DNA of 64,000 nucleotides, taken from contig NC_022600.1 of NCBI RefSeq assembly GCF_000484535.1, forward strand, positions 2,852,001 through 2,916,000, given 5' to 3'. Origin of the DNA: Gloeobacter kilaueensis JS1. Its GTDB lineage: Bacteria > Cyanobacteriota > Cyanobacteriia > Gloeobacterales > Gloeobacteraceae. Position numbers and translations under genes: made by a program. The notes below the pieces were generated by a model. That model made no database searches. It had not been told where the DNA came from and saw only the letters and a program-made list of their open reading frames with translations. How positions within the stretch are numbered: position 1 is the first letter of the stretch; each line of letters begins with the position of its first letter. Below are positions 6,406-47,165 of this stretch, in pieces.

Positions 6406-8133
6406 CTAAAACGTCTTACCGGCGAGATTGGCGAAGAATTCGGCGATCGGCCCCAGGGCGGCAATCGGAAAGAGCGTCAGTCCACCGAGGATGAGGATCG
6501 TACCGGCGGTGACCGCTCCAAAAAGGGGCGTATCGGTGCGCAGGGTGCCGGGAGTCTCCGGCACCGGCTGTTTTTTCTGCAGGCCGCCCGCCAGAGCCAG
6601 CAAGGCGATGATCGGTGCGTAGCGCCCCAGAAGCAGAACGAGCGCACAGGTGAGGTTCCACCAGGGCACGGCACTGGTCAGACCGCCCAGGCCGGAGCCA
6701 TTGTTTGCGGCTGCCGAAGTGTACTCGTAGAAGGGCTCCATAAGCCCGTGGTAGGACGGATTGCCAAGGGAGATGAGCCCAGGGATGGCCACGGCGATCG
6801 CTGTCGGCACTTTGGTGATGATGGGCTGAATAAGAAAGATCACGCTTGCAAGCGCGACTTCCCGCTTCTCGATCTTGCGACCAAAGACTTCCGGGGTCCG
6901 CCCGACCATCAAGCCGGTGACAAAGACAGCGATGATCAAGAACACCAGGATGTAGGCGAGTCCGGTGCCCTGGCCGCCCCAGATCACCTGCATGAACATG
7001 TTGAAGATCGTTGCCAGCAGCGCCAGGGGCGTCAGCGAATCGTGCATCCCATTCACTGCTCCGGTCATCGTCCCGGTGGTGGAGGTGGCAAAGAGGGCAG
7101 TCTGTGCCCAACCAAAGCGGACCTCCTGGCCCTCGAAGTTGGGATTGGCACTGCCTAGAACGGCATTCAAGGTTGGATTGCCAAAAAATTCGCTGGTGGC
7201 GGCGACACCGACCAGGGCGACAAACAGCACGAAGATGGTCCAGAAAATGACCCAGCCCTGCTTCTTGTTGCCCGCCATGACCCCGAAGGTGTAGATGAAG
7301 GCGGTGGGAATCGAGAGCATCAGCAGGATCTGCACCAGGTTGGTAAAGGGGTTGGGATTTTCGTAGGGGTGAGCAGAATTGACGCCGTAGGAGCCGCCGC
7401 CGTTTTCACCCAGTTGCTTGATGCTCTCCATCGAGGCGAACGGCCCGGTAAAGAGTTTCTGGGTGGCGACGGTCCCGGTCTTGTTGTCCACCGTCGTCTG
7501 ATAGGGGTCGGTGAGCTTTACCTCAGTCAGGGCGCTCAAGTTCTGCGGCACCCCCTGGCTCAAGAAGACGACCGCAAAGACAATCGAGATCGGCATCAAG
7601 ATCCGCGAGATCGAGCGGGTGAGATCGACGTAGAAGTTGCCCATGGGCCGACCAAGAAGCCCACGGATAAAGGCAACCCCCACCGCCAGACCGGTTGCAG
7701 CCGAGGTGAACATCAAAAATTGCAGCCCGGCCATCTGGGCAAAATGGCTCGTCCCCGTCTCGCCGGAATAATGCTGCTGGTCGGTATTGGTCAAAAACGA
7801 GATCGCCGTGTGCAGAGCCGTATCCGGGCTCATCCCGGCAATCGCATTCGGATTGAAGGGCAGGCTTCCTTGAAACAGCAAGATCGTGAAGACCGGCACG
7901 AACATCGCGAGGTTGCTCACCAGCACCGCGCGCGCGTAAGTCCACCAATCCATATCCGCCGCCGAATCGACTCCCCCCAACCGGTACACCAGCCCCTCGA
8001 TCGGATCAAAGAGCGGATCGAGCCAGGTCCGCTCGAACTGAAAGACCCGCGCCATGTACGTTCCAAACAAAGGCACGATCGCCACCATCAAGGCGATCGT
8101 GACCGCAATCTGCAAAAAACCCTCAGTGGCCAT
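6406..8133 (-). CDS. kdpA: potassium-transporting ATPase subunit KdpA (copy 1)
   Basis: KdpA is the ion-channel-like subunit that binds and selects K+. The 575-residue polytopic protein carries the four pore-loop regions of the family. They appear here as [47 protein letters not shown] and [10 protein letters not shown]. Several loop residues differ from the commoner forms (for example SYGVN in place of FFNAN), whereas copy 2 is closer there. The start ATG at 8133 is 12 bases after the kdpF stop. It forms the canonical F-A-B-C operon. Confidence 0.96.
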
Positions 8134-16879: not shown

Positions 16880-17560
16880 ATGGCCTCCAGACCAACTGTA
16901 CTACTGGTAGAAGACGACCCGGTTTTCCGCATGGGCCTCAGCCTGCTCCTCAAGAGCAGCCCGCGCTGTGTGCTGGTGGGCGAGGTCGAAGACGGCGAAT
17001 CGGCCCTTAAATTTGTTCGCCGCCAGCCTGTGCAGGTGGTGCTGCTCGATATCGGCCTGCCGGGGCTGGGGGGCGAGCAGACGCTCCGGCAGCTCAAGCA
17101 GAGCCACCCCGAGATCAAAGTGCTCGTGCTCACCAGCCGCGACGAAGCGCGGTTGGTGCAGAAGATGGTCCAGGCCGGGGCGGACGGCTACTGCCTCAAG
17201 GGCATCGCCCCCGAGCACCTGCTCAGGGTGATCGAGGAGGTGAGCGCCGGCCACGGCTGGTTCGATTCAAAAGTCCTCGCCGAGTTGCGCGAAGCGCTTG
17301 GCTCCGCCGAGCAGAACCTGGCCGGTCCCACCCAGACGGTAAGCCTGAGCGAGCGCGAGCGCGAAGTGCTGCAGTGGATCGCCCGTGGGGCGAGCAATCC
17401 CGAGATTGGCCGCCACCTGCACATCTCCAGCGGCACCGTGCGCGTCCACGTCCACGCCATCTTGAGCAAACTCGGAGCGAGCGACCGCACCCAGGCGGCG
17501 GTGATCGCCATCGAGCGAGGACTTTTGCCCTACAATTCCACCGAGCAAAATTCACCATGA
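16880..17560 (+). CDS. NarL/LuxR-family response regulator
   Basis: This 226-residue protein has an N-terminal receiver (about 1-120) with intact phospho-acceptor in VVLLDIGLPGLGG and the conserved TS and LK positions. The C-terminal LuxR-type helix-turn-helix (about 150-215) is recognised by LSEREREVLQWIARGASNPE. It is the likely target of the histidine kinase just upstream. Its last bases overlap the next gene as ATGA, so translation is coupled with the KdpD-sensor protein. The pairing of a NarL-type regulator with Kdp sensing is unusual, since KdpE is OmpR-type. Confidence 0.93.
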   Translation: MASRPTVLLVEDDPVFRMGLSLLLKSSPRCVLVGEVEDGESALKFVRRQPVQVVLLDIGLPGLGGEQTLRQLKQSHPEIKVLVLTSRDEARLVQKMVQAGADGYCLKGIAPEHLLRVIEEVSAGHGWFDSKVLAELREALGSAEQNLAGPTQTVSLSEREREVLQWIARGASNPEIGRHLHISSGTVRVHVHAILSKLGASDRTQAAVIAIERGLLPYNSTEQNSP

Positions 17561-19818
17561 TCAGACAATCCGACGAGCAGCCCGATCCGGAGACGCTGCT
17601 GCGCACGCTGCTGGAATTTTCGCCCGGACGGTTCAAGCTGTACCTGGGCTACGCGCCCGGCGTCGGCAAGACGCTGCGGATGCTGCAGGAGGCGCAACTG
17701 TTGGTCTGCCGGGGCGTCGATCTGGTGGTCGGCATCGTCGAGACCCACGGGCGGCCCGAGACAGCCCGGTTGCTCGAAGGTCTGGAGGTGGTGGATCCCC
17801 GGCGCGCACTCCACCAGGGCGTCACCCTCGAAGAGCTGGATCTCGAAGCGGTGCTCGCCCGCCGTCCAGCTACGGTGATCATCGACGAGCTGGCCCACAC
17901 CAACGCCCCTGGCAGTTCCCACACCAGGCGCTACGAAGATGTGGAGGCGCTGCTGGCCGCCGGGATCAGCGTCATCTCGACGATGAATATCCAGCACCTG
18001 GAGAGTGTCGCCGAGACAGCTGGACGGCTTATCGGTTTTGCTGTCCACGAGCGCGTGCCGGCGCGGATCGTCCAGGCCGCCGACGAAATCCAACTGGTAG
18101 ATACGAGTCCCGAAAAACTGCTCGAACGGCTGGCCCAGGGCAAAGTCGATGCGCGCTTCCAGGCAGGAGGCCAGTTTTTTCGCTCCAGCACGCTGGTCTA
18201 TCTGCGGGAACTGGCATTGCGCACCGTCGCCGGACTGGTGGACGATGCGATTCTCGTCCGGCAGGGCAGCGGTGTGGCGGGACCGGCGGGGGTGCGCGAA
18301 CGGCTGCTGGTGGCGGTGAGCACCAACCCGTCCTCGGCGCGGCTCATCCGCCGGGGCGCTCGGATTGCAGAGCGCTTCGACGGCGAGCTATTTGTCGTCT
18401 ACGTCGATGCCGGCAATACCCCGAGCGCTGAGCAACAGCGGACCCTCGCGGAGCACCGGCAGCTATGCGAGCGGGCTGGGGGCAACTTTGTGGTCCTGCA
18501 GGGACACAATATCTCTCAGGCGCTGGTTGGCTTTGCCCTCGAAAAACACATCACCCAGGTGATCTTAGGCGAGTCGATGCGCACGCCGGTCGAGCAGCTG
18601 TTGCGCGGTTCGGTGATTAACGATCTGTTGCGCTCTACCAGCAACTTAGATGTCCTGGTCGTCGGTGAGACCGAATCGGTGGGGCCGCTGCCGCCACCGG
18701 CGAGTCCGCCCGTACCCAGCCACACCTGCTTTTTACCCGCTGCGCTGGAGCGGCAAACCCGAGGCTGTGGCCGCCACAAGATCTACCTGGGCGCGGCTCC
18801 CGGCGTCGGCAAGACCTGTGCCATGCTCCAGGAGGCCCACGACCTCAGCGCTGCCGGGGTCGATGTGGTCTGCGGCCTGATTGAAACTCACGGACGGGCG
18901 GAGACAGCCGCCCTGATTACCGGGCTGGAGGTGATCCCGAGGCGTCAGCTCACCTACCGGGGCCGCGCCTTCAGCGAATTCGACCGCGAGGCGGTACTGG
19001 CACGCCGTCCAGCGATCGTTCTGCTCGACGAGTTGGCCCACACCAACCTGCCCGGCCTCGGCACCGCCAGGCGCTACCAGGATGTCGAAATTCTCCTGGC
19101 TGCCGGGATCGATGTGATCTCGACCCTCAACATTCAGCATCTCGAAAGCCTCAACACTCTAGTCGAGCGCACCACCGGCGTGCGGGTGCGCGAAACCGTT
19201 CCGGATCTGGTGGTCGAATGCGCCGACGAGGTGGTGCTCATCGATCTCACTACCGACGAATTGCAGCGGCGGCTGCGCGAAGGCAAGATCTACGCTCCGG
19301 CCAAGATCGAACAGGCGCTGAGCCATTTTTTTCGCGCCGAAAATTTGATCGCCCTTAGAGAACTGGCTCTAAGAGAGGTGGCCGACGACTGCACGGCCCG
19401 CAAATTCGATACAGCCACACCCACCGAAGAGCGCGTGCTCGTCTGCACCAACCTCAGGTCCAACGCCCAGCAACTGATTCGCCGGGGGGCGCGCATCGCC
19501 CGCAGGCTGGGCGCTGCCCTCGTCGTCACCTATATTCAGACGACAGGTTCGGCCTTGAGCGAGGCCGAAAAACGGCAACTCGATGGCGTGCGTCGGCTGA
19601 GCGCCGAACTCGGGGGCAGCTTTATCGAGCTGTCGGCCAGCAACGTCGCTGAGCGAATCGTAAGTCTTGCCCACGAGCAGGCGGCCACCCTTCTGGTGCT
19701 GGGCGAATCGCGCCGCTCCCATTTGGAAAAACTCCTGCACGGCTCGGTGATCGAGCAGGTGCTCAGGCGCACGCGCAACCTCGACACGCTCATCGTCGGC
19801 AACTTCGAGCACGAGTAA
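17557..19818 (+). CDS. tandem KdpD N-terminal sensor protein without kinase
   Basis: This 753-residue soluble protein is built from two complete KdpD sensor modules. Module 1 has the Walker A box APGVGKT (about residues 33-39), the conserved ETHGRPETA, a Walker B-like VIIDELAHTNAPGSSHTRRY, and a universal-stress-type domain ending near residue 390. Module 2 repeats the pattern: APGVGKT near 412, ETHGRAETA, VLLDELAHTNLPG, and a second USP domain to the end. No membrane segments or histidine kinase core follow, unlike standard KdpD (about 890 residues). Free-standing single KdpD sensor proteins are known from cyanobacteria such as Anabaena; two in one chain are unusual. The ATG at 17557 overlaps the upstream stop. 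It may relay K+ or nucleotide status to the nearby kinase. Confidence 0.93.
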   Translation: MIRQSDEQPDPETLLRTLLEFSPGRFKLYLGYAPGVGKTLRMLQEAQLLVCRGVDLVVGIVETHGRPETARLLEGLEVVDPRRALHQGVTLEELDLEAVLARRPATVIIDELAHTNAPGSSHTRRYEDVEALLAAGISVISTMNIQHLESVAETAGRLIGFAVHERVPARIVQAADEIQLVDTSPEKLLERLAQGKVDARFQAGGQFFRSSTLVYLRELALRTVAGLVDDAILVRQGSGVAGPAGVRERLLVAVSTNPSSARLIRRGARIAERFDGELFVVYVDAGNTPSAEQQRTLAEHRQLCERAGGNFVVLQGHNISQALVGFALEKHITQVILGESMRTPVEQLLRGSVINDLLRSTSNLDVLVVGETESVGPLPPPASPPVPSHTCFLPAALERQTRGCGRHKIYLGAAPGVGKTCAMLQEAHDLSAAGVDVVCGLIETHGRAETAALITGLEVIPRRQLTYRGRAFSEFDREAVLARRPAIVLLDELAHTNLPGLGTARRYQDVEILLAAGIDVISTLNIQHLESLNTLVERTTGVRVRETVPDLVVECADEVVLIDLTTDELQRRLREGKIYAPAKIEQALSHFFRAENLIALRELALREVADDCTARKFDTATPTEERVLVCTNLRSNAQQLIRRGARIARRLGAALVVTYIQTTGSALSEAEKRQLDGVRRLSAELGGSFIELSASNVAERIVSLAHEQAATLLVLGESRRSHLEKLLHGSVIEQVLRRTRNLDTLIVGNFEHE

Positions 19819-24218: not shown

Positions 24219-24755
24219 CTAGACAGCCACCAGGCGCTCAAGCGCCCGCTGCACCCACTGCATGTGGCGCTGTTCACTGGCTGTGATCGCATCGAAGCGC
24301 TGGGCGATCGCTTCTTTGCCCTGCTCGCGGGCGAGGCGGGCAAAGGCCGGATAGGTCTTGGTCGCTTCGATCGATTCGACCTCGAGGGCGGTCTCGAGGG
24401 CGCGGCGCAGTCCACGCGGATCGCTGCTGACCAACTCCATCTGGGCCTCGATCTCGCCGACGAGTCGCCGGGCCTCGGTCGTCTCGGGAGAATCCTTGAT
24501 CTCCAGTTGCGGATAGAGTTCGCGCAACAGCTCGGCGTGCTCCTTCTCCTCGCGGGCAATCGCCTCGAACATGCCGGCCACCTCGAGCGCCCCGGACTGG
24601 CGGGCAATCTCGGCGAAGGTGGGGTACATGCACTCGTGCTCGTAAATCTCCACTTCGATCGAGGAGGCAGCGTTCAGGTCCGTCTGATCGTGGTAAACCG
24701 CTTCTTGAAAAAACCGGTCGATTCCGAGAAAATCTTCCTGGTAATTGAGAGTCAT
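24219..24755 (-). CDS. rubrerythrin-like ferritin-fold protein
   Basis: This 178-residue protein is a four-helix di-iron carboxylate protein by pattern. Glu-rich helices include VEIYEHECMYPTFAEIAR, REEKEHAELLRELYP, and a C-terminal ASEQRHMQWVQRAL, giving ExxH pairs. Rubrerythrins reduce peroxide. This one lacks the C-terminal rubredoxin Cys4 domain, so electrons must come from a partner. It is convergent with argC with no gap between stops. Confidence 0.82.
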   Translation of the reverse strand: MTLNYQEDFLGIDRFFQEAVYHDQTDLNAASSIEVEIYEHECMYPTFAEIARQSGALEVAGMFEAIAREEKEHAELLRELYPQLEIKDSPETTEARRLVGEIEAQMELVSSDPRGLRRALETALEVESIEATKTYPAFARLAREQGKEAIAQRFDAITASEQRHMQWVQRALERLVAV

Positions 24756-25007
24756 CCGTACCGTCCTCCAACTTAAAACAGTTTGCGAGCGCAGCCCCGC
24801 ATCTTACAAGTCATTTGAGCACTCGATCTCGTCTAAATCCATTAAGTTTTTTGTAGAGAAGTAGTGAGCAATTTTCAGGGACTGGGCGGGAACCGCCGGG
24901 AGTCTGAGTGCTTACTTTCTAAAGGTTACAAGAGGTCATAACTGGCCCCTGCCCTGGGCTTCAAGCTGCTACTAATAAGATGACGAGTTGAAGCCAGGGA
25001 GAAGACC

Positions 25008-26063
25008 GTGGCCGCAGTTGTTGAAAACCGGCGTTCCAGGGGACCTTGGGATCATTTTTGCGATTGGGTGACCAGCACTGAGAACCGTTTTTATGTGGGC
25101 TGGTTTGGCGTTCTGCTTTTTCCGACGATGTTCGCGGCGGCCAGTTGCTTTGTGGTTGCCCTGATCGCGGCTCCGCCGGTGGTGATCGACGGGTTGGGCC
25201 GGATGATGGGCGGTTCGCTCATCGACGGCAACAATGTGATCACTGCGGCAGTGCTGCCTACTTCCCCGGCAATCGGGTTGCACTTATATCCCATCTGGTC
25301 GGCACCGTCGGTTACCGAATGGTTGCTCAACGGCGGCCCCTACCAGCTCATCGTGTTGCACTTTTTGATCGCCGTCGCCGCTTATCTGGGACGGCTGTGG
25401 GAGTTTTCGTACCGGCTGGGGATGCGTCCCTGGATCGCCATTGCCTTCAGCGCTCCGGCTTCGGCGGCCTTCGCTGTCTTTTTGATCTACCCGATTGGCC
25501 AGGGAGCCTTCGCAAGCGGAATGCCCCTGGGGATTACAGGCACATTCAACTGGATGCTGCAGTTGCAGGCTGAGCACGACATTCTCAACCATCCGCTGCA
25601 CATGCTGGCGGTGAGCGGCGTGCTGGGGGCAGCACTTTTGAGCGCGTTCGACGGCTCGGTGTCCGCCTCGGCTCTGGTCAGTCGGAGCAGCGACGAAGCA
25701 GCAGGGGCGGGTGATCTGATCGAAACTTACAGTCTCTGGGGCGGTTACAACTATGTCTGGCGGCTCGCCATCAGCCCCGTGGGCCTCGTCAATCCCCGGA
25801 CGATCGCAGCCACCCTGGGCGTCTTCTCGACCCTGGGTGTCTGGTGCGGCACACTGCTGGTGACGGCGGTGGCCTTTAATCTGGGCGGCCTCAACTACCA
25901 GCCGATTCAGGAGGGCCGCTTCAATCGGACGATTCCGACCTGGGCAGACACGATCAAGCGGGCGGATGCCGGTATCGACGGCATGATGCAGCCTGGCACG
26001 ATTGCGGTCGCCGACGCGGTACAGTACACCGCTGAGTGGCTGCCGAACCGTCCGCTGCGATGA
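25008..26063 (+). CDS. psbA: atypical photosystem II D1 protein (group 0-like PsbA)
   Basis: This 351-residue five-helix protein is plainly of the D1 family (SYRLGMRPWIAIAF, FLIYPIGQGAFASG, QAEHDILNHPLHML) and aligns with standard D1 without gaps up to about residue 220. It keeps Tyr161 (Yz), His190, Glu189, His118 and His198. It lacks Asp170 (Ser), His332 (Met), Glu333 (Gln), Asp342 (Ala) and the C-terminal Ala344, so a normal Mn4CaO5 cluster cannot be bound. His215 is Asp and His272 is Ala, removing D1 ligands of the non-haem iron and the QB site. Part of the D-E loop is deleted. The start is GTG at 25008 after an AGGGAG-type site. Its stop overlaps murQ. It resembles the early-branching D1 reported from G. 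kilaueensis; its function is unknown. Confidence 0.93.
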   Translation: MAAVVENRRSRGPWDHFCDWVTSTENRFYVGWFGVLLFPTMFAAASCFVVALIAAPPVVIDGLGRMMGGSLIDGNNVITAAVLPTSPAIGLHLYPIWSAPSVTEWLLNGGPYQLIVLHFLIAVAAYLGRLWEFSYRLGMRPWIAIAFSAPASAAFAVFLIYPIGQGAFASGMPLGITGTFNWMLQLQAEHDILNHPLHMLAVSGVLGAALLSAFDGSVSASALVSRSSDEAAGAGDLIETYSLWGGYNYVWRLAISPVGLVNPRTIAATLGVFSTLGVWCGTLLVTAVAFNLGGLNYQPIQEGRFNRTIPTWADTIKRADAGIDGMMQPGTIAVADAVQYTAEWLPNRPLR

Positions 26064-26968
26064 GCGAGCGCGCCCACCTGCTCACCGAGCAGATCAATCC
26101 CAACAGCATCAACCTCGACCAGCTCGACACTCCCGCGCTGGTCGAGTTGTTTTGTGATGAAGATGCCCTGGTGGTGCCGGCGGTGCGCACGGCCAGGCTG
26201 GCGATCGCCCAGGCGATCGACCGGGTGGCGCTGGCCCTCGGTAGGGGGCACCGGCTTTTTTATATCGGGGCTGGCACCAGCGGCAGGCTGGGCGTCCTCG
26301 ATGCAAGCGAGTGCCCACCGACTTTCTGTACCGCTCCTGAGCAGGTTCAGGGCATCATCGCCGGGGGAGTGAGTGCCCTGACCCGCAGCGTCGAAGGAGC
26401 AGAAGACGATCCGCTGGCCGGTGCTGCGGATCTGGCAGCCCGCCATCTGGAGGCAGGGGATGTGGTGGTCGGGATCAGTGCCGGGGGGACGGCTCCCTAC
26501 GTTCTCGGTGCCCTGGGCTACGCCCGGCAGGTCAGTGCAGCAACGGTCTTTGTCGCCTGCGTGCCGACAGAGCAGATCCCGGCGCAGTGGGACATCGAGA
26601 TTCGGGTGCCGGTGGGAGCGGAAATTCTCGCGGGTTCGACGCGCCTGAAGGCCGGTACAGCCACCAAGCTCGTGCTCAACATGCTCTCGACCGGGGCGAT
26701 GGTCCGTCTGGGCAAGACCTGCGGCAATTTGATGGTCGATGTCGCAGTCACCAATCAAAAGCTCTACGACCGGGCGGCGCGCATTCTCACGACGCTGACA
26801 GAACTGGAGCGGGCCCAGGCCATTCAGCTCCTGGAGGCGAGTGGGCGGCGGGTAAAAGTGGCGCTGCTCATGCACTGGAGTGGCCAGAGGGCTGAGCTTT
26901 GCGCTGAGGTGCTATCGGCGAATGGCGGGTTGTTGCCGGTTGCGCTTCAGCGGTTGCAGCAGCGCTGA
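26060..26968 (+). CDS. murQ: N-acetylmuramic acid 6-phosphate etherase
   Basis: MurQ cleaves the lactyl ether of MurNAc-6-phosphate to give GlcNAc-6-phosphate and lactate, in cell-wall recycling. The 302-residue protein has the SIS-domain motifs YIGAGTSGRLGVLDASECPP and VGISAGGTAPYVLGAL, and the family TRLKAGTATKLVLNMLST. The ATG at 26060 overlaps the psbA stop as ATGA, so translation is coupled to that odd D1, a surprising partnership. Confidence 0.95.
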   Translation: MSERAHLLTEQINPNSINLDQLDTPALVELFCDEDALVVPAVRTARLAIAQAIDRVALALGRGHRLFYIGAGTSGRLGVLDASECPPTFCTAPEQVQGIIAGGVSALTRSVEGAEDDPLAGAADLAARHLEAGDVVVGISAGGTAPYVLGALGYARQVSAATVFVACVPTEQIPAQWDIEIRVPVGAEILAGSTRLKAGTATKLVLNMLSTGAMVRLGKTCGNLMVDVAVTNQKLYDRAARILTTLTELERAQAIQLLEASGRRVKVALLMHWSGQRAELCAEVLSANGGLLPVALQRLQQR

Positions 26969-26979
26969 GAAGAAACAGT

Positions 26980-28308
26980 CTACGGCACCTGGGCTCCCGA
27001 ACGGCTCTGAGAAGAAGGACTGGTCGCCTGCGGGGGTGGGGTGAGGGCTTTGAGCAGAGTGGTAGTGCCCTGTTTGTACTGGGGATCGGCGGCGGTGGCG
27101 ACCTGTTCGATCGTAAATTTTTTGCGCAGCTGCTCAGGAAAAGGGGCCACAATATCCGGGTTCAGCCCCTTGTGGCCGATATCCTGACCGGCGGGCGTCA
27201 GATAGTGGGCGATGGTGACATTCAGCCCCGAGCCGTCGGAGAGGGCGTTCATCTGCTGAACGAGGGCTTTGCCAAAGGTTTTGGTGCCGACCAGGGTGGC
27301 CCGGCGATTGTCCTGCAGGGCACCGGCCAGGATCTCGCTCGCTGAGGCGGAGCCGCCATCGACCAGGACGACCATCGGCAGGCTGCTGACGGGCCGGTGG
27401 GCGGAGGCCACCGTATCCTGGACGCCCTCGCGGTCGATGACTGAGACGATGTTGCCGTTTTCAAGAAAGAGATTGGCGATGCCGATCGCCGCATCGACCG
27501 CACCGCCGGGGTTGGAGCGCAGATCGAAGATCCAGCCCTGGGCACCCTGATGCCTGAGAGAGAGAAGTGCTTTTTTGACCTGGGAGGTGGCTCTGGCAGA
27601 AAATTCTGCCAGCCGGATATAACCCAGTTTCTGGCCCTGTTCGCTCTTGAGGGCAGCGGTGACCACCGGCAATTCGATAGGGGCGCGGGTGAGAGTAAAT
27701 TTGATCTTCTGCTTGCGGTTGCGCAGAACGGTGAGGGTGACCTGCGTACCGTTCTCGCCCCGGATGCGGCGCGTCACCTCCGGCAGCGGCACATCGGTGG
27801 TCGGACGGCCATCGACGGCCACCAGCTGATCTTCGACGTGTACGCCGGCTCTGGCGGCGGGACCACCGGCTACGGTCGCTACGACCTGGGGCAGGCGGCG
27901 ATCGGGGGAGGGCGGGCGCAGGGTAACGCCGACACCGATAAGCTGGCCGGAGGTTTCTTCGGTCAATGCCTGAAACTCGCGCGGCTCTAAAAAGCGCGTG
28001 TACGGATCGCCCAGCCCTTCGAGGGCGGTGCGAATCGCCTTGTAGGCGTCCGCTTTGCTCGCGTACTCGCGGCTGAGCAGTTGTTGGCGGACCCGCTGCC
28101 AGTCCTGCTTGTTGAAGGTCGCATCGACGTACTCGGAGTTGACCGTCTGCCAGACCTCGTCTACGATTGCCTTCGGCGAATCTACAAGCTGCAGATCAAA
28201 GGCGACAGGCAGAGGCGGACGGGCCTGAACGGCTGCCGGAGCGCTCAACACCGCTCCTGAGAGTAACAGCCACACCAGGGTGCGGCGAAGGCGGTACATT
28301 CCGAGCAT
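26980..28308 (-). CDS. ctpA: carboxyl-terminal processing protease (CtpA-type, S41)
   Basis: This 442-residue S41 peptidase has an N-terminal signal sequence (about 1-30, LLLSGAVLSAPAAVQA), a helical N-domain, a PDZ domain (about 100-185) and the catalytic Ser-Lys pair in DGGSASASEILAGAL and GTKTFGKALVQ. CtpA in cyanobacteria acts on the lumenal/periplasmic side to trim pre-D1. It is convergent with psbA-murQ. The neighbouring D1 lacks the normal cleavage end, so it is not an obvious substrate. ATG at 28308 or 28299 could be used. Confidence 0.92.
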   Translation of the reverse strand: MLGMYRLRRTLVWLLLSGAVLSAPAAVQARPPLPVAFDLQLVDSPKAIVDEVWQTVNSEYVDATFNKQDWQRVRQQLLSREYASKADAYKAIRTALEGLGDPYTRFLEPREFQALTEETSGQLIGVGVTLRPPSPDRRLPQVVATVAGGPAARAGVHVEDQLVAVDGRPTTDVPLPEVTRRIRGENGTQVTLTVLRNRKQKIKFTLTRAPIELPVVTAALKSEQGQKLGYIRLAEFSARATSQVKKALLSLRHQGAQGWIFDLRSNPGGAVDAAIGIANLFLENGNIVSVIDREGVQDTVASAHRPVSSLPMVVLVDGGSASASEILAGALQDNRRATLVGTKTFGKALVQQMNALSDGSGLNVTIAHYLTPAGQDIGHKGLNPDIVAPFPEQLRKKFTIEQVATAADPQYKQGTTTLLKALTPPPQATSPSSQSRSGAQVP

Positions 28309-32504: not shown

Positions 32505-32835
32505 GTAGACGAAGGTGATTAAACGTCAGCTCCAAGCAGCCCTACGTCCCTTATGGCAGAAGAAAAATACTACAAGCCTGCAACTGACTGTACCCATCCC
32601 CTCTGCAGCCCAGTTACAGTGAACCCCCCCTCGTATATTGCTATTGGTTCCAAGGTAGCGGTGAGGACTGTGCCCCCCCTTGCGGCTTTGACCGCGTGGA
32701 AGAGATTGTCCCCCGCTATCAAGGACCGGCAAAGCTGAACCGTATCGAGTGGCACTGACCACGTATCACGAGGCTAGACTTTTGCCGTCCTGCGGAACTT
32801 GCCTACCTCCTCTGAAGCTTCAACTGGAGACACTC
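32505..32835. other. region between the GNAT remnant and IS110
   Basis: No gene with a start and ribosome-binding site is seen. One plus-strand frame at about 32589-32758 lacks a start codon but ends with protein-like VEEIVPRYQGPAKLNRIEWH before a stop. It could be the tail of another broken gene. Confidence 0.35.
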
Positions 32836-33864
32836 ATGCAGCGAGACGGTTCACAAAACGACTATCAGCTATTTGTCGGTATTGATGTGGCGGCACTCAC
32901 TGTCACTGCCGCCTGGCTGCTCACCCACGCAAAGCCTACCGCTGCCATCACACTGCCCCAAACCCCCGAAGGACACTGCCAATTGGCCGAACGCTTACTC
33001 GCCGTCTGTCCCACCGCCGCTGAGGTGTTAGTGGTCATCGAAGCCACAGGCTCCTACTGGATGCGACTGGCCACATTTCTGGCGCTCAAAGGTTTTGCCG
33101 TCAGTGTGGTCAACCCCGCTCAGTCTCATTACTTTGCCAGGGCACTGCTCAAGCGTTCCAAAAGCGATGCGCTTGATGCCCAGACGCTTGCCCAACTCGC
33201 TGCCGCCCTGCAACCTGGTCTTTGGCAGCCGCCGCCTGAGATTTATTACCAACTCCAACAGCGCCTGCAGCATCGCGATGCCTTGCTGCAGCAACGCCAA
33301 CAACTGCACAACCAGTTGCACGCTCTGCGGCAATTTCCGTTGGTGGTGGCGGCGGTACAAGCGAGTCTGGAGCAGTTGAGCCACACCTTCGATGAGCAGA
33401 TTGCGCAGATGGAAGCTCAGCTAGAAGCGCTGCTCGCCCAAGACTCGCTTTGGCATCAAGCTGCAACCAAGCTGCGCACTATCAAAGGCATTGGGTCTGT
33501 CACCGCTGGGTGGGTGTTGGTGAGTACCCTCAACTTCGGCTGCTGTGCAACGGTGGAAGCGGCGGTGGCCTACGCGGGTCTCGCTCCCCGCTCCCACCGT
33601 AGCGGCACCAGCCTTCATAGACCAGAGCGCATCGGCCATGCAGGCAATGCCCGCTTACGCACGGCGCTGTATATGGCGAGCTTGAGTGCGATCCGCTGCA
33701 ATCAGCAGATTAAAAGCTTTTACCAGCGGCTACGAGCAGCCGGTAAACCGGCAAAGGTAGCGCTTTGCGCTGCGGCTCGCAAACTCTTACACATTGCCTG
33801 GGCGGTTGTGAAAACAGACACGCCTTTCGATGCAGAGCACGGCAGGTTGGTTTGCTTGCAGTAG
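32836..33864 (+). CDS. IS110-family transposase
   Basis: This 342-residue transposase of the DEDD type has an N-terminal RuvC-like part with FVGIDVA, VVIEATGSYW and KSDALDAQTLAQLA. The C-terminal Transposase_20 part has KLRTIKGIGSVTAGWVLVST and GLAPRSHRSGTS. The Ser nucleophile region near LRTALYMASLSA is present. It looks intact. The ATG at 32836 follows a GGAG stretch. IS110 elements lack normal terminal inverted repeats, so I cannot fix the exact ends. Confidence 0.93.
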   Translation: MQRDGSQNDYQLFVGIDVAALTVTAAWLLTHAKPTAAITLPQTPEGHCQLAERLLAVCPTAAEVLVVIEATGSYWMRLATFLALKGFAVSVVNPAQSHYFARALLKRSKSDALDAQTLAQLAAALQPGLWQPPPEIYYQLQQRLQHRDALLQQRQQLHNQLHALRQFPLVVAAVQASLEQLSHTFDEQIAQMEAQLEALLAQDSLWHQAATKLRTIKGIGSVTAGWVLVSTLNFGCCATVEAAVAYAGLAPRSHRSGTSLHRPERIGHAGNARLRTALYMASLSAIRCNQQIKSFYQRLRAAGKPAKVALCAAARKLLHIAWAVVKTDTPFDAEHGRLVCLQ

Positions 33865-45618: not shown

Positions 45619-47165
45619 GATCGCAAGCCGTAGCACTCGGGGTAAGAAAAATTCAAGAAGCCGCCGGTGGAGGCGGATCGGGCGGTTTGGGCGGTGGTGG
45701 AGTGGGTCTGCCCTGGGCAGGCGGGTTGGCGGCACCACCAGCCGCTGGCTTTGGCGGTACCGTTCCACCCTGGATGGGCGGTTTGGGAGGCGGTGCAGTT
45801 CCACCCTGGGCAGGGGGAGCCGGAGGCGGTGCCGCTCCTCCCTGGGCGGGCGGTTTGGCCGGGGGGGCCGGTGGCTGAGGAGCGGGCTGGGACCGATTCG
45901 GGGCGGCGGGAGCTGGTTGGCCGCCGTTGGCAGGTGTATTCGGTGGCTGGGACGCAGGAGCCGCCTTTGGATGGGGACTGGTGGCCGGTGCCGGGGGGCG
46001 CGGCGGCACACCGGCCCGTCCCTGAGCAGGAGCAGCAGGTCGGGGGGCACCGGGCGAACCGGGTGGGCGGGTGGGGGAGGACGGCACCGCCTGGCCCCCC
46101 CTGGCCGGGGCGGGGCGGGGGCGGGGCAGGTGGCCCCTCGATGAACAGATCGTAGGTGCAGAAAGCCGGGCGCTCCTGCTCGATAATCAGCCGCACCAGC
46201 CGCTCGTTGACCTGATTGGGACGCTGTTCGCGCAGGCGCACGACAAAGTGAAAGGGCCGCCCGCCCCCCAGTACGGTTCCCTGGCCGAGGTGCTCGGCAC
46301 CGAGGACGAAGCCCCGGCCAAAGTGATCGCTGATGCTGATGTGTTTGCCCGCCTCCTGGGCAATGTGATCGTCGAGCGGCAGGCCGGTGTAAAGGTGCAG
46401 GTAGAGTCTCAGCCCGCGCCGGGTGCCCCGGTTGCGATAGATTTCGACCGCCCGCTTGATCAGCCGACGCTGCTGGGGGAGATCCCAGCGCGCATCGATG
46501 GGCCAGGAAACCCAGTAAGCCAGAAACGGCAGCAGTGTCTGGGGAGCGGTGAGCGGGTCGAGATTGGCCCACATCGCTTCGAGGCTGTGGTAGGCAGGCT
46601 CGAAGGTCTCCTCGAAGATCTTGAGAAAGCGACCGATAAAGTCAACTTCGCGATAAAGAACCGGCAAATAGTTGAGATAGAGGCTGTGGGCCCGCACGTG
46701 GAGGCTGAATTCTTCGAGCTCGACTTGATCGAGTTCGAGGGCGTTGGTGCCGTGAAAAAAGTATAACCGACTTTGAAAATCAAGGTCGAGCCGCCGCCGC
46801 TTCTGCGGGCTGAGTGCCTGCTGGTCCTCAAAGTAAGAAGCGTTGACCTGAAAGTAGAGCACCGCCTCCATCTGCTGGCCGGGGGCGAGTTCGTGGCCCT
46901 CCATGCCGATGCGGCACCAATCGACAGGAAAGTTGCCTTCGACGCGCAAGTTCAGCCAGATTGGGCGCTTGCCGAGATTTTTGACCTGCACGATCATCTC
47001 GCTCGGCTCCCCCGGATGCAACAGCAGGCTCGCAGCGGATTGGCTTGCGACAGTCGTCGCCTCAGCGGGCCCGGCCACCTGCAGACCAGCGAGGGGCACC
47101 GCCTCGGGGATGCGCATCGGGGTCAGCTGGATGCTGATGAGCTTGCGGTCGCTGGCCTGCGCCAC
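45615..47165 (-). CDS. phage tail protein I-like, with variable Pro-rich C-terminus
   Basis: This is 516 residues as read. An N-terminal beta-rich region is followed by a tail-I-type domain (about 160-345; YLPVLYREVDFIGRFLKIFE and YRNRGTRRGLRLYLHLYTG), as in the P2 gpI / TIGR02242 phage-tail families that form the baseplate wedge. The start is GTG at 47165 with a strong AGGAGGT site. After a run of seven Gs (46095-46101 on the plus strand as C) the observed frame becomes Cys/Trp-rich and odd. With six Gs it would instead continue as a regular Pro/Ala/Gln repeat ending at 45653. See findings. Confidence 0.82.
   Translation of the reverse strand: MAQASDRKLISIQLTPMRIPEAVPLAGLQVAGPAEATTVASQSAASLLLHPGEPSEMIVQVKNLGKRPIWLNLRVEGNFPVDWCRIGMEGHELAPGQQMEAVLYFQVNASYFEDQQALSPQKRRRLDLDFQSRLYFFHGTNALELDQVELEEFSLHVRAHSLYLNYLPVLYREVDFIGRFLKIFEETFEPAYHSLEAMWANLDPLTAPQTLLPFLAYWVSWPIDARWDLPQQRRLIKRAVEIYRNRGTRRGLRLYLHLYTGLPLDDHIAQEAGKHISISDHFGRGFVLGAEHLGQGTVLGGGRPFHFVVRLREQRPNQVNERLVRLIIEQERPAFCTYDLFIEGPPAPPPPRPGQGGPGGAVLPHPPTRFARCPPTCCSCSGTGRCAAAPPGTGHQSPSKGGSCVPATEYTCQRRPTSSRRPESVPARSSATGPPGQTARPGRSGTASGSPCPGWNCTASQTAHPGWNGTAKASGWWCRQPACPGQTHSTTAQTARSASTGGFLNFSYPECYGLRS

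Follow-up and report, generated by a model that had tools for sequence, protein, structure and literature searches.

Atypical D1 Proteins of Photosystem II

Several atypical forms of the D1 protein have been described besides the standard ones (G3/G4). Sentinel or rogue D1 (G2, PsbA4/rD1) is a paralogue which lacks several Mn ligands while keeping P680 and tyrosine Z (YZ). It has been shown that Synechocystis cannot photosynthesise with PsbA4 as its sole D1, and a function in the down-regulation of photosystem II (PSII) in the dark has been proposed (PMC9640542). Chlorophyll f synthase (ChlF; G1, super-rogue D1) is another diverged D1 devoid of a full Mn site and provides a precedent for a D1 protein turned enzyme (PMC10535343). 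A further form, G0, is encoded by a psbA gene of Gloeobacter kilaueensis which was reported to have tyrosine Z and the chlorophyll ligands but neither the Mn nor the non-haem Fe ligands, and to fall outside the super-rogue clade (Gan, Shen and Bryant, 2014; PMC4390838). G0 has been interpreted as the earliest D1 (Cardona, 2016; PMC4773611), and in the rooted trees of two studies it is the most basal D1 (PMC4773611, PMC12096807). Its position was found to be unstable by Oliver et al., who left it out (PMC8047818), and both known G0 proteins have been modelled (PMC12096807).

The loss of ligands in G0 was thus already known, as it had been published earlier (PMC4390838, PMC4773611, PMC12096807). 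New here, as far as the literature searched is concerned (Cardona 2015 and Saw 2021 excluded), are the finding that residue 189 is alanine in the orthologue, the pattern of selection, the arrangement with murQ, a gene remnant in another genus and the count of D2-like residues.

Identity and Genomic Context of psbA0

The window analysed is a stretch of 64,000 nucleotides from G. kilaueensis JS1 (NC_022600.1, positions 2,852,001 to 2,916,000). The frame listing and translation gave an open frame of 351 amino acids at 25008-26063 (+ strand), which begins with GTG and is preceded by a GGGAG motif 8-9 nt 5' of the start. Its product, AGY58976.1, is the divergent psbA of G. kilaueensis, the published "G0" D1, and the gene is called psbA0 below. 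The protein was assigned to Photo_RC (Pfam) and matches the psbA profile with E=1.4e-121 and 405.6 bits, under the equivalog cut-off of 596, compared to 119 bits with the D2 profile. AlphaFold models built on alignments of 2 and 15 sequences had a mean pLDDT of 31 and 41, respectively, and were not used.

Upstream of psbA0, a divergently transcribed gene encodes a rubrerythrin-like ferritin-fold protein (24219..24755, - strand; PF02915, E=9e-22) which was found in 8 of the 8 genomes of the order tested. Downstream lies murQ (26060..26968, + strand), coding for N-acetylmuramic acid 6-phosphate etherase (TIGR00274, 371 bits, cut-off 302). The psbA0 stop and the murQ start overlap (ATGA) in G. 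kilaueensis and are separated by 8 nt in G. morelensis; the two genes are probably co-transcribed. A CtpB-type protease gene convergent with murQ (26980-28308, - strand) might have supplied a linked processing enzyme, an idea that was rejected because the gene is not adjacent to murQ at this locus in G. morelensis or in a related genus (genome G004). Elsewhere in the window, an 814-aa protein (17374-19818, + strand) carries two tandem KdpD sensor and universal-stress units with no matched kinase domain, an IS110-family transposase is encoded at 32749-33864 (+ strand), and a 36-bp tandem repeat is present in 2.9 copies at 45753-45858.

Among 390 genomes of the class, a G0 gene was found only in G. 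kilaueensis and in one congener (756 and 782 bits; next best 476), which we assume to be G. morelensis, since G0 has been reported from no further species (PMC12096807). The orthologue is 73% identical and stands in the same locus order, argC / rubrerythrin-like / psbA0 / murQ. Since the gene is found at the same place in a second species, a chimera or an assembly error was rejected. As a lead only, the titles of the two species descriptions indicate a cave origin for both species that keep G0.

Residues Lost and Kept

A preliminary description of this sequence had listed Asp170, His332, Glu333, His215 and His272 as replaced and Tyr161, His190 and Glu189 as retained, which was confirmed by alignment with standard D1 (all residues are numbered as in Thermosynechococcus D1, and all codons are on the + strand). 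On the Mn side, the changes are D170S (25515..25517), H332M and E333Q, while H215D (GAC, 25650-25652), at a ligand of both iron and QB, and H272A (GCA, 25806-25808) remove ligands of the non-haem iron. The QB site is further altered by H252Y, F255V, S264G and F265L. Other departures had escaped the preliminary description, namely Q130L and Y147F at the pheophytin site, N298G and T286G. Kept are Y161, which is YZ (25488..25490), E189 and H190 (25572..25577), the ChlZ ligand H118 (25359..25361), the P_D1 chlorophyll ligand H198 (25599..25601), Y126, Q165 and N181, as well as E244 and Y246 on the bicarbonate side.

From the methionine that stands for H332 onward (25986..26060, + strand), the protein ends in a new tail without Mn ligands, in which the positions of H337, D342 and A344 are unalignable. 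Asp342 and Ala344 had also been described as replaced; the standard ligands are indeed gone, and for A344 "unalignable" is the more accurate term. A CtpA processing site could not be recognised in this C-terminus, and cleavage-site loss in atypical D1 has been reported (PMC12096807).

The G0 protein of G. morelensis likewise has D215, A272, S170, M332, Y252, G264, L130 and F147, and so the ligand losses are not noise. As both orthologues share them, they support the earlier proposal that this D1 cannot sustain water oxidation and has no normal QB and iron site. Two features differ between the species. Residue 189 is Ala in G. morelensis, and its DE loop, which reads ESVNQGYRFGQAEETYS, is full length and similar to that of standard D1, whereas the loop of G. 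kilaueensis has a 5-aa deletion. Therefore, neither Glu189 nor the deletion is a trait of the G0 group, and the deletion, which the preliminary description had rightly noticed, is a recent event specific to G. kilaueensis.

The iron ligands were compared across 69 standard D1, 16 G2 or other D1, 3 QD-type D1 and 13 D2 sequences. In all of them residue 215 is His, and residue 272 is His with the single exception of one G2 sequence; loss of both histidines occurs only in the two G0 proteins. In Fischerella sp. PCC 9431, a G2-type D1 (L070) has Asn in place of the iron ligand H272.

Comparison with the Known D1 and D2 Classes

G0 belongs to the same family as standard D1, with about 55% identity, the same chlorophyll ligands and the YZ-H190 pair, but it is distinguished by the absence of the Mn cluster and of the iron and QB histidines and by its new C-terminus. 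It thus has neither the full Mn, Fe and QB ligand set nor the psbA equivalog score of a standard D1, and corresponds to the G0 type of PMC4390838, a psbA homologue with YZ and chlorophyll ligands and without Mn and non-haem Fe ligands.

Similarly to sentinel D1, G0 is a paralogue without several Mn ligands, part of those at 189, 333, 342 and 344 being absent, in which P680 and YZ are kept; many G2 proteins also share L130, F147 and a small residue (A/G) at 264. However, G2 proteins keep H332, H337, H215 and H272 (15/16) while G0 does not, and regulation in the dark or with nitrogen fixation is known for G2 only. With D2 (PsbD), G0 shares M at 332 and the lack of Mn ligands, whereas D2 keeps the iron histidines; in addition, the G. 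morelensis G0 has a D1-type DE loop and the D2 score is far lower.

The preliminary description had also likened this protein to chlorophyll f synthase, which stands as a loose analogy, both being diverged D1 proteins without a full Mn site. ChlF has Q127-D128, H215 and H272 and is located in the FaRLiP cluster, none of which applies to G0. The QD motif at 127-128, detected in three QD-bearing D1 used as positive controls, is absent from both G0 proteins, which read L127 G128, and no FaRLiP-type psbB, psbC or psbD paralogue was found in the G. kilaueensis genome. On these grounds, a function of G0 as chlorophyll f synthase was rejected. Among the QD-bearing proteins, one D1 (L097) keeps H252, E333 and D342, unlike the two typical ChlF found, and is possibly an intermediate form.

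Selection and Gene History

Selection was estimated by the Nei-Gojobori method between G. kilaueensis and G. morelensis. For psbA0, dN/dS is 0.168 with a dS of 1.1, which is near saturation and similar to that of its neighbours, for which dN/dS is 0.069 (argC), 0.041 (rubrerythrin-like) and 0.146 (murQ). The gene is under purifying selection. This constraint is unevenly distributed: residues 100-214 are 90% identical with a dN/dS of 0.05, near the values of argC and the rubrerythrin-like gene, compared to about 55% identity in the DE loop and 59% in the C-terminus. As residues 100-214 are far more conserved than these regions, constraint bears on the pigment and YZ helices, i.e., the charge-separation core.

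The gene is not universal in the family. Its leader (24756..25007, + strand) is shared, in a five-genome alignment, with G. violaceus, where it runs straight into murQ, and contains the conserved elements TTAAGTTTT near 24842 and TGAG(T)GCTTAC near 24905. As this leader aligns with the one before murQ in G. violaceus, psbA0 is flanked by a shared leader on one side and by murQ on the other. In G. violaceus itself, psbA0 is absent from the site and the rubrerythrin-like and murQ genes adjoin, 216 bp apart; in one further genome (G005), they are 185 bp apart, without psbA0 between them. Another genus of the family (G004) has a D1 remnant at the same spot (L145, ~6598-6757), covering residues 74-130 with two frameshifts. 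By per-site comparison, the remnant agrees with G0 at 40/56 positions, versus at most 35 with any other D1, and at 5/7 G0-diagnostic positions. This assembly is fragmented, with 8% contamination, and the flanking genes lie on the contig in the expected order. In assembly G001, the contig breaks off next to the psbA0 locus, within a transposase-like frame, and no G0 gene was found elsewhere in this assembly. The simplest reading is that psbA0 was present in the common ancestor of Gloeobacter and the G004 genus and has been lost at least two times.

The frameshifted remnant and the empty sites of G. violaceus and G005 might suggest that psbA0 is a functionless, decaying duplicate. This is improbable and already disfavoured, since the frame is open and dN/dS low in both species that keep the gene, which argues that psbA0 is not decaying there.

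Phylogenetic Position and the Earliest-D1 Question

In a tree of 38 sequences with D2 as outgroup (LG+G4), G0 was found among atypical D1 proteins and not at the base; it sat on a long stem (0.67), and local support was weak. The model was site-homogeneous, atypical sequences were few, and the constrained searches behind the AU tests were fast. These did not reject a basal G0 (p=0.38), a sister relationship to G1 (p=0.25) or grouping with G2 (p=0.57) or with standard D1 (p=0.17), the weakest placement being that as sister to the Gloeobacter G4 (p=0.05). D1-only data and the conserved core left the placement equally unresolved. G0 thus does not simply fall inside normal D1, a placement which is not firmly excluded, and its ligand losses recur in an independent genome, so the preliminary account of a truly diverged D1 holds in this respect. 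Among the sequences collected, a psbA on a contig labelled as a gammaproteobacterial MAG (L045, 797-1846) forms a long branch and has E170 with all other Mn ligands present; it is possibly a misbinned cyanobacterial or phage gene.

It has been proposed (Cardona 2015/2016) that G0 survives from the earliest D1 lineage, pre-dating the full Mn cluster, and can use YZ and Glu189 to oxidise Mn(II) or a different donor. The published basal rooting (PMC4773611, PMC12096807), the D2-like H332M and the fact that a basal G0 is not rejected by the AU test, including on the core (p=0.23), are consistent with this proposal. Nevertheless, Glu189, said to be the one Mn ligand kept in G0 (PMC4773611), is Ala in the orthologue, and the DE loop of the G. 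morelensis protein is of the standard D1 type. The tree position has moreover been reported as unstable (PMC8047818). Since D2 and essentially every other D1 tested carry the iron histidines, their absence from G0 is, on this comparison, a derived state. Finally, among departures at sites that distinguish D1 from D2, the D2-like share is 12-14% in G0, not above the 15-21% of G1 and the 11-31% of G2, and a special D2-likeness of G0, M332 apart, is not borne out. The lack of D2-like enrichment and the unresolved tree position weaken the earliest-D1 interpretation, which we regard as improbable.

Possible Functions of G0

The best explanation of these data is that psbA0 is a functional, vertically kept and derived D1 paralogue, the published G0 D1. 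H198 (P680), H118 (ChlZ), Y126 and the YZ-H190 pair are retained in both proteins, which have the losses at the Mn, iron and QB sites in common. In the single-contig genome of G. kilaueensis (4,724,791 bases), the seven D1/D2-like genes are psbA0, five ordinary psbA and one psbD, alongside one CP47-type (psbB-like) and one CP43-type (psbC-like) gene, leaving G0 only normal partners. A different partner had been suggested in the preliminary description; with a single psbD-, psbB- and psbC-like gene in the genome, this suggestion is not supported, and G0 most likely pairs with the normal D2.

Regarding function, we tentatively favour, at somewhat less than an even chance, that G0 replaces D1 in PSII to give a light-active, non-oxygenic and acceptor-blocked centre comparable to that of sentinel D1. 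Apart from this substitution, PSII would be normal, with the same D2, CP43 and CP47. Light absorption and charge separation would persist in such a centre, as P680, ChlZ, the pheophytin pocket and YZ-H190 are kept, and the oxidation of YZ appears possible from these residues. The Mn4CaO5 cluster could not be built. As G0 lacks two iron histidines out of four, along with the residues that normally donate hydrogen bonds to QB, the usual iron-quinone bridge would be missing and no electron would reach QB, although D215, together with the retained E244 and Y246, may still hold a modified iron site. We infer that G0 assembles with D2 and separates charge, and that its physiological role might be that of a placeholder or energy sink keeping PSII parts safely inactive, as proposed for sentinel (G2) D1. 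Unlike in that proposal, the G0 centre would be blocked at the acceptor side too.

Several points speak against this explanation. With half of the four iron histidines gone, the centre might assemble less stably. The retention of E244 and Y246 may mean that some iron/bicarbonate site persists with D215 as a replacement ligand. In addition, psbA0 sits before murQ and not amid light-regulated genes, and YZ is not required of an energy sink.

The main rival reading, itself unlikely, is that G0 is a light-driven enzyme akin to chlorophyll f synthase, in which P680+/YZ would oxidise a substrate while the acceptor side shunts electrons to oxygen or to a bound molecule. Constraint on G0 is strongest in the charge-separation core and at YZ-H190, ChlF sets the precedent mentioned above, and functional similarities to super-rogue D1 were remarked by Gan et al. 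(PMC4390838). However, the QD motif and the FaRLiP-type paralogues are missing, the major pigments of the strain are reported to be chlorophyll a and beta-carotene (PMC3806779), and no pigment or redox-enzyme gene adjoins psbA0. It is still less likely that G0 acts as a structural or assembly stand-in for which photochemistry is not needed, e.g., holding D2-CP47 modules or damping PSII number. The absence of psbD, psbB and psbC paralogues and of a donor or acceptor path in G0 would fit such a role, which would not, however, need the conserved chlorophyll and YZ residues.

Going further than the favoured replacement of D1 in PSII, G0 could represent a separate derived class of PSII core, blocked at both the water and the iron-quinone sides, which uses light for a task distinct from water oxidation, sentinel-type inactivation and the making of chlorophyll f, and which arose early in the Gloeobacteraceae and was repeatedly lost; we consider this doubtful.

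Implications

Arguments about the origin of water oxidation have relied on G0 as the most primitive D1. The variable Glu189, the apparently secondary loss of the iron ligands, the absence of a D2-like excess and the unresolved placement suggest a strongly modified protein and not a frozen early stage, and inferences on primitive D1 drawn from G0 should be weakened accordingly. If G0 assembles with D2, it would provide a natural PSII without Mn cluster or normal iron-quinone site, which would be useful for probing the need for the iron ligands.
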